Assembly: GCF_030913635.1 (NCBI RefSeq)
Contig: NZ_CP133188.1
Location: forward strand, 930,001 to 994,000
Origin: Sedimentibacter sp. MB35-C1
GTDB lineage: Bacteria > Bacillota > Clostridia > Tissierellales > Sedimentibacteraceae
Reading direction: 5' to 3'
Length of the DNA stretch: 64,000 nt
The position numbers and the translations under genes are program-made. Positions 28,205-33,876 of this stretch are shown here, in pieces. The stretch's first letter is position 1; the number at the start of each line of letters is the position of its first letter. The notes beneath the pieces were generated by a model. It was not told where the DNA came from and searched no databases. It saw only the letters and a program-made list of their open reading frames with translations.

Positions 28205-28256
28205 ATCAAAGCTGTGTTTCGCTTGACACAAGTGGAACGCAAGAAAATATTGGCAG

Positions 28257-28285
28257 TTGACAATAAGAATAAAATATTGTAAACT
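28257..28285 (+). promoter_or_regulatory. rRNA promoter P2
   Basis: TTGACA, 17-base spacer, TAAACT, 81 bases after P1. AGCTGTC begins six bases after the -10; hairpin TGTCTC/GAGACA at 28294-28311. Confidence 0.85.
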
Positions 28286-28337
28286 GCACAAGCTGTCTCA
28301 AGAAAGAGACAATAGAAAAAATGGCATAAAAAAATTC

Positions 28338-28366
28338 TTGACAAGCTAAGTCAAAGATGATAAACT
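28338..28366 (+). promoter_or_regulatory. rRNA promoter P3
   Basis: TTGACA, 17-base spacer, TAAACT, 81 bases after P2. AGTTGTC begins six bases after the -10; hairpin TTGTC/GACAA at 28374-28392. Confidence 0.85.
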
Positions 28367-28434
28367 ATCAAAGTTGTCTCAAATGACGACAAGCAAATAA
28401 AGAAAAGAAGCTTGAAAAAAGAAGTAAAAACTTC

Positions 28435-28463
28435 TTGACGAGCAAGAACAAATGTGATAAGCT
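28435..28463 (+). promoter_or_regulatory. rRNA promoter P4
   Basis: TTGACG, 17-base spacer, TAAGCT, 97 bases after P3. AGCTGTC begins six bases after the -10; hairpin AGCTG/CAGCT with an inner CTC-GAAA-GAG at 28469-28489. Confidence 0.8.
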
Positions 28464-28516
28464 ATATAAGCTGTCTCGAAAGAGCAGCTGTCAAGAAAAA
28501 ATAAGTTAAAAAATTC

Positions 28517-28545
28517 TTGACAAGCTAAAGTGAATGTGATAAACT
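28517..28545 (+). promoter_or_regulatory. rRNA promoter P5 (nearest to 16S)
   Basis: TTGACA, 17-base spacer, TAAACT, 82 bases after P4. AGCTGTC begins six bases after the -10; hairpin GCTGTC/GACAGC at 28552-28569. The predicted leader to the 16S 5' end is about 127 bases. Confidence 0.88.
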
Positions 28546-28581
28546 ACCAAAGCTGTCTCGGACGACAGCGAAGAACCTAGA

Positions 28582-28598
28582 CAATAAAACAGCATAAG
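28582..28598 (+). other. 16S processing stem, 5' arm (operon 1)
   Basis: The 17 bases CAATAAAACAGCATAAG are perfectly complementary to 30211-30227 on the other side of 16S. Such flanking stems are cut by RNase III in pre-rRNA. The same pair occurs in operon 2 (33780-33796 with 35408-35424). Confidence 0.8.
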
Positions 28599-30194: not shown

Positions 30195-30397
30195 AAGGAG
30201 AACTAAAGGACTTATGCTGTTTTATTGCTTGCTTTAAAAAAAAGTAAAGCAAGACTGAAGGATACAGTATAAAACCACAGAACTTTGAAAATTGCATAGG
30301 AAAATGAAAAGAGAAGACATTAGTTAAATTCAAATTTTAAATAATAAATACAATTTAACCAAAAAAAAATGTTATGAAGACATAACAATGACAAACA

Positions 30398-33319
30398 GGT
30401 CAAGATAGAAAGGGCTAAGGGCGAATGCCTTGGCACTGGGAGCCGAAGAAGGACGTGGCAAACTACGAAATGCTGCGGGGAGGCGTAAGCAGCCGATAAT
30501 CCGCAGATATCCGAATGAGGAAACTCACATAAGGTAAACCTTATGTATCATACAGTGAATAAATAGCTGTATGAGGGGAACGAGGGGAACTGAAACATCT
30601 AAGTACCCTTAGGAAGAGAAAATAAAAAATGATTCCGTAAGTAGCGGCGAGCGAAAGCGGAAGAGCCCAAACCAAGTAGAAATACTTGGGGTTGAGGACA
30701 TATCAAAGAGACAGAAAACTGTAGCCGAAGAGAGCTGGAAAGCTCCTCCAAAGAATGTGATAGACACGTAAGCAAAACAGTTTGAAGCGAGGATATGATC
30801 CAGAGTACCACGGGACACGAGGAATCTTGTGGGAAGCAGGGAGGACCACCTCCCAAGGCTAAATACTACCCAGTGACCGATAGAGAATAGTACCGTGAGG
30901 GAAAGGTGAAAAGAACCCCGGGAGGGGAGTGAAAAAGAACCTGAAACCCTGAGCCTAAAAACAGTGGAAGCACAAAAGTGTGACCGCGTACTTTTTGTAG
31001 AACGGGCCAACGAGTTACAATATGCAGCAAGGTTAATAACCAAAGGTTAGGAGCCGAAGAGAAATCGAGTCTGAAAAGGGCGAAAGTTGCATGTTGTAGA
31101 CCCGAAACCGGGTGACCTATCCATGTGCAGGTTGAAGCTAGAGTAAAATCTGGTGGAGGACCGAACCCATTAGCGTTTAAAAGCTACGGGATGACGTGTG
31201 GATAGCGGTGAAATTCCAATCGAACCCGGAGATAGCTGGTTCTCCTCGAAATAGCTTTAGGGCTAGCCTCAAGTAAGTATAGTGGGGGTAGAGCACTGAA
31301 TGGTCTAGGGGCGTTATACGTTACCAAAACCTATCAAACTCCGAATACCATATATATGTTGCTAGGGAGTCAGACTATGTGAGATAAGTTTCATAGTCAA
31401 AAGGGAAACAGCCCAGATCACCAACTAAGGTCCCAAAATATAGATTAAGTGGAAAAGGATGTAAAACTACACAGACAACCAGGATGTTGGCTTAGAAGCA
31501 GCCATTCATTAAAAGAGTGCGTAATAGCTCACTGGTCGAGTGGTTTTGCGCCGAAGATGTCCGGGGCTAAAATCTATTACCGAAGTTGTGGGATACCAAT
31601 AGGTATCGGTAGAGGAGCATTGTGTACGGATAGAAGCACTACCGAAAGGAGTCGTGGACTGTACAGAAGAGAGAATGTTGGCATGAGTAGCGAAAGGTGA
31701 GTGAGAATCTCACCCATCGAAAGCCTAAGGATTCCTGAGGAAGGCTCGTCCACTCAGGGTAAGTCGGGACCTAAGCCGAGGCCAAAAGGCGTAGGCGATG
31801 GACAACTGGTTGAAATTCCAGTACCACCTTTAAGCGTTTGAGAAATGGGGTGACACAGGAGGGTAAGCTGGCGCACAGCTGGAAAAGTGCGTCTAAGTAA
31901 GTAGGGAGACGATACAGGCAAATCCGTAACGTCAATCCTGAGATACGAATGGGAGCGAAAATAAGTAGTGAAGCAGCTGAGCCCACACTGTCAAGAAAAG
32001 CCTCTATCGAGCAAGAAGGTGCCCGTACCGTAAACCGACACAGGTAGGCAAGGAGAGAATCCAAAGATGAGCGGAAGAACTATTGTTAAGGAACTAGGCA
32101 AAATGACCCCGTAACTTCGGGAGAAGGGGTGCCCTTCAGAGTGAAGACAGAACTGTTGGAGCTTAGAAGGGCCACAGAAAACAGGCCCAAGCGACTGTTT
32201 ACCAAAAACACAGGTATCTGCTAAATCGAAAGATGAAGTATAGGTGCTGACACCTGCCCGGTGCTGGAAGGTTAAGGGGAGAAGTCATCGAAAGAGAAGC
32301 TTTGAACTTAAGCCCCAGTAAACGGCGGCCGTAACTATAACGGTCCTAAGGTAGCGAAATTCCTTGTCGGGTAAGTTCCGACCCGCACGAAAGGTGTAAC
32401 GATTTGGGCACTGTCTCAACAATAGATCCGGTGAAATTGTAGTACTCGTGAAGATGCGAGTTACCCGCGGCAGGACGGAAAGACCCCATGGAGCTTTACT
32501 GCAGGCTGACATTGGAATTCGGTAGCAATTGTACAGAATAGGTGGGAGGCAGAGAAATCGGTACGCCAGTATCGGTGGAGCCAACGTTGGGATACCACTC
32601 TATTGTTACTGAATTTCTAACATGATACCGTGAACCGGTATATGGACACTGTCAGTTGGGCAGTTTGACTGGGGCGGTCGCCTCCGAAAGAGTAACGGAG
32701 GCGCTCAAAGGTTCCCTCAGCACGGTCGGAAATCGTGCGAAGAGTGTAAAGGCAGAAGGGAGCTTGACTGCGAGAGAGACATCTCGAGCAGGAACGAAAG
32801 TTGGACTTAGTGATCCGGTGGCACCGAGTGGAAAGGCCATCGCTTAACGGATAAAAGCTACCCTGGGGATAACAGGCTTATCTCCCCCAAGAGTCCACAT
32901 CGACGGGGAGGTTTGGCACCTCGATGTCGGCTCGTCTCATCCTGGGGCTGAAGCAGGTCCCAAGGGTTGGGCTGTTCGCCCATTAAAGAGGCACGCGAGC
33001 TGGGTTCAGAACGTCGTGAGACAGTTCGGTCCCTATCCGCCGTGGGCGCAGGAAATTTGAAGGGAGCTGTTCCTAGTACGAGAGGACCGGAATGGACAGA
33101 CCGCCGGTGCATCAGTTGTCACGCCAGTGGCATAGCTGAGTAGCTGAGTCTGGATTAGATAAGCGCTGAAAGCATCTAAGCGCGAAACTAGCCCTAAGAT
33201 AAGATTTCCCATCACGCAAGTGAGTAAGACCCCCGATATGTTAACGGGTTGATAGGTTGCATGTGTAAGTGCAGCAATGCATTCAGCTGAGCAATACTAA
33301 TAGGTCGAGGTCTTGACCT
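30398..33319 (+). rRNA. rrl: 23S ribosomal RNA, operon 1
   Basis: About 2,922 bases. The ends pair (GGTCAAGA near the start, TCTTGACC near the end). Conserved blocks seen are GGATAACAGGCTTATC, AGTACGAGAGGACCGG (sarcin-ricin loop) and CGTAACTATAACGGTCCTAA. It has five T residues at 30992-30996 where copy 2 has four. No intron or intervening sequence is seen. Outer flanking segments 30278-30300 and 33464-33486 are complementary at about 21 of 23 bases and form the processing stem. Confidence 0.97.
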
Positions 33320-33502
33320 CAAAGATGCCCTAACCCAATATTTTCGACTAAAAGGAGAAAAAAATTGAAGGTAGGTCATTCGCAACGAATTCCCAATTTA
33401 TGCGACGCAAGGAGCAAGTAAATTGGTGAATGAGACTGCGCAAAAATGTCTAATCTAAAAATTCCTATGCGATTTTGAAAGTTCTGAAAGAACTTTTATA
33501 TA

Positions 33503-33618
33503 TCTGGTGACAATAGCGAAGAGGACACACCCGTACCCATCTCGAACACGGAAGTTAAGCTCTTCAGCGCTGATGATACTTGGCGGGCAACTGCCTGGGA
33601 AAGTAAGACGTCGCCGGG
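33503..33618 (+). rRNA. rrf: 5S ribosomal RNA, operon 1
   Basis: About 116 bases. CTGGTGAC at the 5' end pairs with GTCGCCGG at the 3' end, with CACACCCGTACCCATCTCG, GAACACGGAAGTTAAGC and CTGGGAAAGTAAG between. Identical to operon 2 as far as read. Confidence 0.95.
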
Positions 33619-33630
33619 TATGACCTAACC

Positions 33631-33661
33631 CGATTTTTCAGAGTTTTGTTCTGAAAAATCG
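33631..33661 (+). other. Trailer hairpin after 5S (operon 1)
   Basis: CGATTTTTCAGA and TCTGAAAAATCG form a 12-base perfect stem. No U-tract follows, so intrinsic termination here is doubtful; it may be a processing signal. The same hairpin is at 38969-38999 in operon 2. Read-through from operon 1 into operon 2 is possible. Confidence 0.6.
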
Positions 33662-33716
33662 ATGGTAGGTAAACCGCAATGAGTTTTAAGCGGAAAATTA
33701 AATAATAAAATATTTC

Positions 33717-33745
33717 TTGACAACATATGACAAGTATGTTAGACT
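33717..33745 (+). promoter_or_regulatory. Single promoter of rRNA operon 2
   Basis: TTGACA, 17-base spacer, TAGACT. AGCTTC begins six bases after the -10 and forms the hairpin GCTTC/GAAGC at 33752-33767, the same layout as P1-P5 but with different stem sequence. Confidence 0.85.
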
Positions 33746-33876
33746 AAAAAAGCTTCGAAATAGAAGCGAAGAACCTAGACAATAAAACAGCATAAGAACC
33801 TTTGAGAGTTCAAAGAAAAAAAGAACCAAAGTAAAGAAAGACAAAGATAAGCTAAGCGCTATCTTGAGCAAGAATA

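Follow-up and report, generated by a model that had tools for sequence, protein, structure and literature searches.

A predicted RNA hairpin at the expected start site of ribosomal RNA promoters in Sedimentibacter and other Clostridia

Results

We analyzed a 64,000-nucleotide (nt) stretch of the Sedimentibacter sp. MB35-C1 genome (contig NZ_CP133188.1, positions 930,001 to 994,000 of the forward strand; hereafter the window), which carries two tandem ribosomal RNA (rRNA, rrn) operons. Each of the six rrn promoters in the window is followed by a short inverted repeat predicted to fold, in the transcript, into a hairpin at the expected start site. Similar hairpins were found at most rrn promoters of the genus and family and of other families of the order and class, and their predicted pairing is conserved through changing sequence. 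The hairpin is fixed relative to the -10 element of each promoter, not to the distance from the 16S gene. These findings indicate that a conserved RNA structure, as predicted from the letters, is fixed at each start site.

In operon 1 there are five promoters (P1 to P5) and in operon 2 one (P6), all of the form TTGACR-17-TARRCT. The spacing between the -35 and -10 elements is 17 bp in 6/6, and the -35 is TTGACA except for TTGACG at 28435. The -10 hexamers end at 28204, 28285, 28366, 28463, 28545 and 33745. The first-pass annotation of this DNA had proposed that AGCT or AGTT starts at a constant distance from the -10; the motif indeed begins at the sixth base after it in 6/6 (28210, 28291, 28372, 28469, 28551 and 33751), exactly at the coordinates it had given. 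The promoters and hairpins, all on the + strand, are as follows, with the predicted folding energy of the 26 nt from the sixth base and its z score against dinucleotide shuffles.

28176..28204, promoter P1 of rrn operon 1, TTGACA-17-TAAACT
28211..28233, P1 5' hairpin, core TGTGT (28213-28217) / ACACA (28226-28230), -6.2 kcal/mol, z -1.0
28257..28285, promoter P2 of operon 1, TTGACA-17-TAAACT
28294..28311, P2 hairpin, TGTCTC/GAGACA, -7.8 kcal/mol, z -3.3
28338..28366, promoter P3 of operon 1, TTGACA-17-TAAACT
28373..28390, P3 hairpin, GTTGTC/GACGAC, -7.7 kcal/mol, z -3.2; alternative TTGTC/GACAA at 28374-28378/28388-28392
28435..28463, promoter P4 of operon 1, TTGACG-17-TAAGCT
28469..28489, P4 hairpin, AGCTG-u-CTC(GAAA)GAG-CAGCT, -10.7 kcal/mol, z -2.8
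28517..28545, promoter P5 of operon 1, leader-proximal, TTGACA-17-TAAACT
28552..28569, P5 hairpin, GCTGTC/GACAGC, stem from the expected +1 G, -9.6 kcal/mol, z -2.6
33717..33745, promoter P6, sole promoter of rrn operon 2, TTGACA-17-TAGACT
33752..33767, P6 hairpin, GCTTC/GAAGC, -7.1 kcal/mol, z -2.8

The stems named in the first-pass annotation were all present, with two corrections: at 28372 GTTGTC/GACGAC is favoured over TTGTC/GACAA, and the stem at 28469 is longer than described, with one bulge and a GAAA loop. The P1 hairpin (28210) is unexceptional by itself, as 29/200 shuffles fold equally well.

We then counted hairpins across the whole genome, a single 3.62-Mb contig with six 16S genes in six rrn operons. 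A search with the strict pattern TTGAC-N18-TAARMT-N5-AG gave 14 sites, every one of them 5' of a 16S gene; the reversed pattern, used as a control, gave no site. The looser pattern TTGAC-N18-TAnnnT before the leader gave 18 rrn promoters, with AG at positions 6-7 after the -10 in 16 and TC in 2; they are σA-type, with TTGACA-17-TAnnnT elements upstream of 16S genes, usually in tandem. In the default fold test (25 nt from the sixth base after the -10; thresholds -2 and -4 kcal/mol), 15/18 reached -2 kcal/mol or lower. The earlier claim that every rRNA promoter carries the hairpin thus holds for the six in the window and fails for 3/18 promoters genome-wide.

To examine its spread, we assembled three promoter sets. 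The genus/family set comprises 187 distinct promoters from 23 genomes, including the 18 above. Its search pattern required TAARCT and AG at positions 6-7, and other promoters of the same arrays were added regardless of their start (93/187); sites lacking a leader or 16S gene within 900 bases were left out unless they lay at most 700 bases from a contig end. The order set holds 80 promoters (23 genomes in ten further families of the order; 41/47 loci productive), and the class set 43 (29 genomes in 17 further families of the class; 33/48 loci productive). The loci that gave no new promoter (order 6/47, class 15/48) had a short contig, an unrecognised 16S start, another spacing or -35, or a duplicate copy. 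As controls we took 30 non-rRNA promoter-like sites from the same genome, the first 30 of 178 pattern places; rrn sites are present among the 178 but not among these 30, some of which may not be true promoters. All counts pool paralogues and near relatives.

Folds of -2 kcal/mol or lower were predicted for 161/187 genus/family, 63/80 order and 38/43 class promoters against 5/30 controls, and folds of -4 kcal/mol or lower for 134/187, 50/80 and 35/43 against 4/30. Absence of pairing in relatives had been named beforehand as what would speak against a role for the structure; relatives at all three ranks retained it. The mean minimum free energy of the first 25 nt was -6.05, -5.23 and -7.04 kcal/mol (genus, order, class), and that of the following 25 nt -0.55, -0.97 and -1.69 kcal/mol; median z scores against dinucleotide shuffles were -2.08, -1.88 and -2.21. 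Of the 93 genus promoters beyond the reach of the AG-demanding pattern, 75 fold at -2 kcal/mol or lower and 70 have AG. Of the 187, 157 were kept by virtue of a leader or 16S gene (135 fold) and 30 by contig end alone (26 fold).

Beyond the three sets, 13 Bacilli and Peptostreptococcales leaders were available from plasmid-labelled records. Similar stems were seen by eye in some of them (GTTGCT/AGCAAC in Niallia and Priestia, CGGC/GCCG in Paenibacillus); 7 of the 13 match the promoter pattern, with folds at 5/7 proximal and 2/2 upstream promoters. By eye only, actinomycete and rhizobial rrn leaders showed no clear +1 hairpin. A match in an Oribacterium contig (L180), which by eye had no rrn leader context, was dropped as a chance hit.

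The position of the stem was examined next. In an anchored scan, 36-67% of promoters in the three sets had stems starting at offsets 6-8, 7-37% at offsets 9-12, and at most 10% at offsets 0-5 and 13-26. The commonest first paired base was position 7 after the -10 (99/187, 30/80 and 26/43 in genus, order and class), and positions 6-8 together accounted for 148/187, 54/80 and 34/43 promoters compared with 6/30 controls. From the usual -10 spacing, position 7 is the expected +1. It is G in 167/187 genus, 53/80 order and 33/43 class promoters; in Bacillus subtilis, according to PMC7824091, all rrn transcripts initiate with GTP. On this spacing, we infer that each pre-rRNA would start with the hairpin.

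A minority class of promoters, with TCC or TCT after a 5-base spacer, has no G at the expected +1; 17/17 of these fold, and in 14 of them pairing begins at position 6. Examples are found at loci L004 (C1:1255008-1255036) and L010 and in relatives (L055, L106, L123 and others). The TCC class has no purine at this position, in contrast to rrn promoters that start with GTP, and may escape control by the initiating nucleoside triphosphate (iNTP) and guanosine tetraphosphate (ppGpp). By eye, the order of tandem promoters also seems to be kept across species (L010, L109, L106, L114), running from the AGCACTTC/AGCATTT type through AGCTGT and TCC to the leader-proximal promoter.

The 5' arm is itself conserved, with GCTGT in 82/150 genus rows that have G at position 7, so pairing had to be tested against swapped partners. 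Genus stems formed with their own partners in 147/187, compared with a mean of 108.6 and a maximum of 121 over 100 swaps. Exact 5-bp stems at position 7 were found in 60/150 genus (swapped mean 33.3, maximum 44), 20/50 order (6.1, 14) and 17/31 class promoters (8.2, 13), with 300 swaps each. Among rows without the commonest 5' arm the excess persisted in the genus (20/68; swapped 7.3, maximum 14) and the order (16/41; 2.9, maximum 8).

In a MAFFT alignment of 33 leader-proximal genus sequences, 90.3% of cells were paired, against 85.3% after shuffling and 27.2-58.5% after sliding. Cells changed on both sides numbered 8 versus 2.0 in shuffled alignments, and covariation was 0.241 versus 0.162 (reached by 0/500 shuffles). 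Where one of six pairs departed from Watson-Crick pairing, the departure was G-U in 43/81, and changes to G-U outnumbered those to A-C by 43 to 17. Because G-U is the commonest departure, this preference favours selection on RNA over DNA. As in 5'-terminal stabilising stem-loops, the pairing is conserved and not the sequence. Because the predicted folding is kept while the letters change, the fold itself probably matters. The arm swaps, the alignment, the G-U bias and the spread through order and class therefore bear out the earlier suggestion that the RNA structure is important because its pairing survives sequence change.

Hairpins were found at leader-proximal promoters (6/6 in the own genome, 36/41 in the order, 36/38 in the class) and at upstream promoters (8/11, 34/46 and 13/18). 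Proximal promoters have a boxA-like element directly 3' of the hairpin, at a median of 30-41 nt from the -10. From upstream promoters, the next boxA-like motif lies at medians of 133-185 nt, although the motif is short and self-defined and single distances are rough.

Two other kinds of element were considered. An intrinsic terminator or attenuator was rejected, the stems being followed by A-rich sequence and no U run (by eye). A general feature of stable-RNA promoters was likewise rejected, since transfer RNA (tRNA) sites were weaker, though not devoid of folds: 5/13 reached -2 kcal/mol and 1/13 reached -4 kcal/mol, among 13 promoter-like sites picked by eye at 16 tRNA loci apart from rrn, some of whose windows enter the tRNA. 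A few tRNA promoters do carry a small start hairpin (AGCTG/CAGCT in L129, -7.7 kcal/mol in L336, and one in L108).

Rfam searches of the window at the gathering score returned only rRNA, tRNA and an S-adenosylmethionine (SAM) riboswitch; the operon 2 promoter was covered at the gathering score only. At E values up to 5, positions 28090-28690 gave only four eukaryotic chance matches. The loci of eight relatives yielded only rRNA, tRNA and one flavin mononucleotide riboswitch. A known Rfam element was thus set aside, as nothing in the window or the eight relatives' loci matched the hairpin.

Discussion

We tentatively favour the explanation that the first ~18-20 nt of most rRNA transcripts form a hairpin protecting the 5' end, an explanation that we rate as somewhat short of probable. 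The stem would begin at the expected start site or within one base of it and act as a structural 5' cap, leaving 0-1 unpaired bases at the triphosphate end. Such an end should be a poor substrate for RppH-type pyrophosphohydrolases, and the 5'-to-3' exonuclease RNase J would then be unable to load on the growing pre-rRNA. In this way the leader, together with the boxA leash of the antitermination complex, would remain intact throughout transcription of the operon and up to the excision of 16S by RNase III.

In PMC3997798, purified B. subtilis RppH is described as requiring two or more unpaired nucleotides at the 5' end, the second of them a G. A stem from +1 leaves zero unpaired 5' nucleotides, and among 253 promoters with G at position 7 just one has G at +2. 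The Sedimentibacter genome encodes RNase J (650 bits). Given the demands of RppH, the stem from +1 and the rarity of G at +2, protection of the 5' end makes the best use of the exact register. Protection from 5' decay, one of the roles raised in the first-pass annotation, is compatible with our data.

Several observations weigh against this reading or against the conservation on which it builds. The placement of the transcript 5' end rests on -10 spacing, and the pyrimidine at +2 could be a promoter requirement. Initiation at the A of position 6 would place a G, the context that RppH prefers, at base 2, though a single base would then be unpaired. Nor is it obvious why 5' protection should be needed for a leader that is thrown away once RNase III has cut. 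The hairpin is not indispensable either: 3/18 promoters of the genome itself (all upstream promoters, in two operons) lack one of -2 kcal/mol, and upstream promoters keep it less well in general, the hairpins of proximal ones being stronger in each of the three sets, with the smallest difference in the class. By eye, E. coli P1 lacks a hairpin of this kind. Among class rows without the commonest 5' arm, 10/22 form the exact stem (swapped mean 3.5), and the best of 300 swaps also gave 10. Two weaker covariation measures did not separate clearly from shuffles, with double-change pairs reached by 40/500 and further pair types by 259/500, and paralogous promoters are not independent.

Among the alternatives, a role in transcription after promoter escape fares best, although we consider it unlikely. 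The extruded hairpin, with RNA polymerase near +28 to +35, would stop backtracking or R-loops behind densely loaded polymerases and keep promoter clearing fast. It would account for a start-site-fixed hairpin at strong tandem promoters, for pairing kept despite sequence change and for the weaker tRNA promoters, where 1/13 sites compared with 134/187 rrn promoters reach -4 kcal/mol. It does not obviously require a stem starting exactly at +1, as stems a few nucleotides downstream would suffice. An effect on promoter escape itself, also proposed earlier, is unlikely on timing: the 3' arm of the hairpin clears RNA polymerase only after about +28.

The hairpin could instead serve as the boxB-like element of an rrn nut site, helping a NusB/S10 antitermination complex assemble on the downstream boxA. 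We regard this as distinctly improbable. Proximal hairpins do stand directly before a boxA-like element, and E. coli boxB lies right after P2, its role there being termed puzzling in PMC10250234. The same paper reports little effect of boxB deletion in E. coli. Upstream promoters carry the hairpin far from boxA-like motifs, so acting on boxA in the manner of boxB cannot explain it fully, and the earlier proposal that the hairpins load antitermination factors is weakened to that extent. Overall, a position just 5' of boxA is seen at proximal but not at upstream promoters; stems vary, and loops vary in length and sequence, offering no conserved loop for an N-like protein.

About as improbable is an insulator function, in which the 5' tail folds on itself and is kept from pairing wrongly with leader sequence, the leader-trailer helix or 16S. 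Local pairing conserved at the extreme 5' end through sequence change would fit, whereas the exact +1 register would be unneeded and the 25 nt behind the hairpin are themselves little structured. We consider it very improbable that the repeat is a DNA site (operator or cruciform) or a by-product of tandem promoter-unit duplication: AGCTGTC, the 5' arm, is conserved as a DNA motif and the arrays look duplicated, but the arms change together, G-U is favoured among departures and the stems diverge widely between families, for which reasons we rejected a DNA operator.

Both 5'-terminal stabilising stem-loops and rrn boxB are already known kinds of element. In bacterial messenger RNAs (mRNAs), papA carries a stabilising stem at or a few nucleotides from the 5' end, and further examples are ompA and the Bacillus aprE type. 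The Sedimentibacter hairpin differs in that it belongs to transcripts of rRNA operons, recurs at most promoters of the tandem arrays and extends throughout the class, its effect on stability being predicted. That 5' structure blocks RppH and 5'-end-dependent RNases is described in PMC3997798. E. coli rrn boxB and the lambda nut sites likewise place a small hairpin between the last rrn promoter and boxA; the clostridial hairpin also occurs at upstream promoters far from boxA-like motifs, has variable loops and is fixed to the start site. The tandem rrn promoters of B. subtilis, which are controlled by initiating GTP, share the σA consensus, the tandem arrangement and the G at the expected +1 (PMC7824091 for B. 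subtilis).

A broader proposal is that covarying 5'-terminal hairpins cap primary rRNA transcripts across the Bacillota, independently of the initiating nucleotide, and exclude RppH and RNase J, with E. coli rrn boxB as a counterpart or remnant; this seems to us doubtful. We found no description of a start-site-fixed hairpin at most Clostridia rrn promoters in the titles and abstract openings of the open-access literature; older subscription papers could hold one.

Few bacterial promoters have been studied as closely as those of rRNA. Among the B. subtilis constructs described in PMC7824091, the rrnB P1 core stops at +1, tandem constructs stop at +8/+9 of P2, and one rrnO P2 fusion reaches +50. 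Any hairpin in those ending at +1 or +8/+9 would be cut off, so that some standard constructs would omit this ~20-nt element. If the hairpin does protect the 5' end, it would account for the escape of nascent pre-rRNA from 5'-to-3' exonuclease in bacteria that have RNase J, offer a candidate origin for boxB and provide a short portable element for transcript stabilisation.

Other features and observations

The remaining features of the two operons, on the + strand where given, and the gene 5' of them are:

26602-28086, lysine--tRNA ligase gene, 643 bits to lysS_bact; both operons lie 3' of it
28573..28592, +, conserved leader GAACCTAGACAATAAAACAG of operon 1, where relatives carry boxA-like TCTTTGAAAACTGAA; putative boxA
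28679..30192, +, 16S rRNA of rrn operon 1
33771..33790, +, conserved leader of operon 2, as in operon 1
33877..35389, +, 16S rRNA of rrn operon 2

The leader sequence was also matched in Sedimentibacter contigs from S. saalensis, S. hydroxybenzoicus and metagenome-assembled genomes. The SAM riboswitch lies at window positions 4428-4522. Three of the six 16S genes (L004, L005 and L006; C1:1255370, 2731883 and 2897371) carry an insertion of ~135 bases near gene base 80, presumably in helix h6. It is absent from both window copies and from L001, and thus forms an intervening sequence in half of the copies. By eye, the 16S leader of operon L004 contains ~120 bases similar to the spacer between 23S and 5S in another operon (CCTAACCC...GGTAGGT...GCGACGCAAGGAGC).

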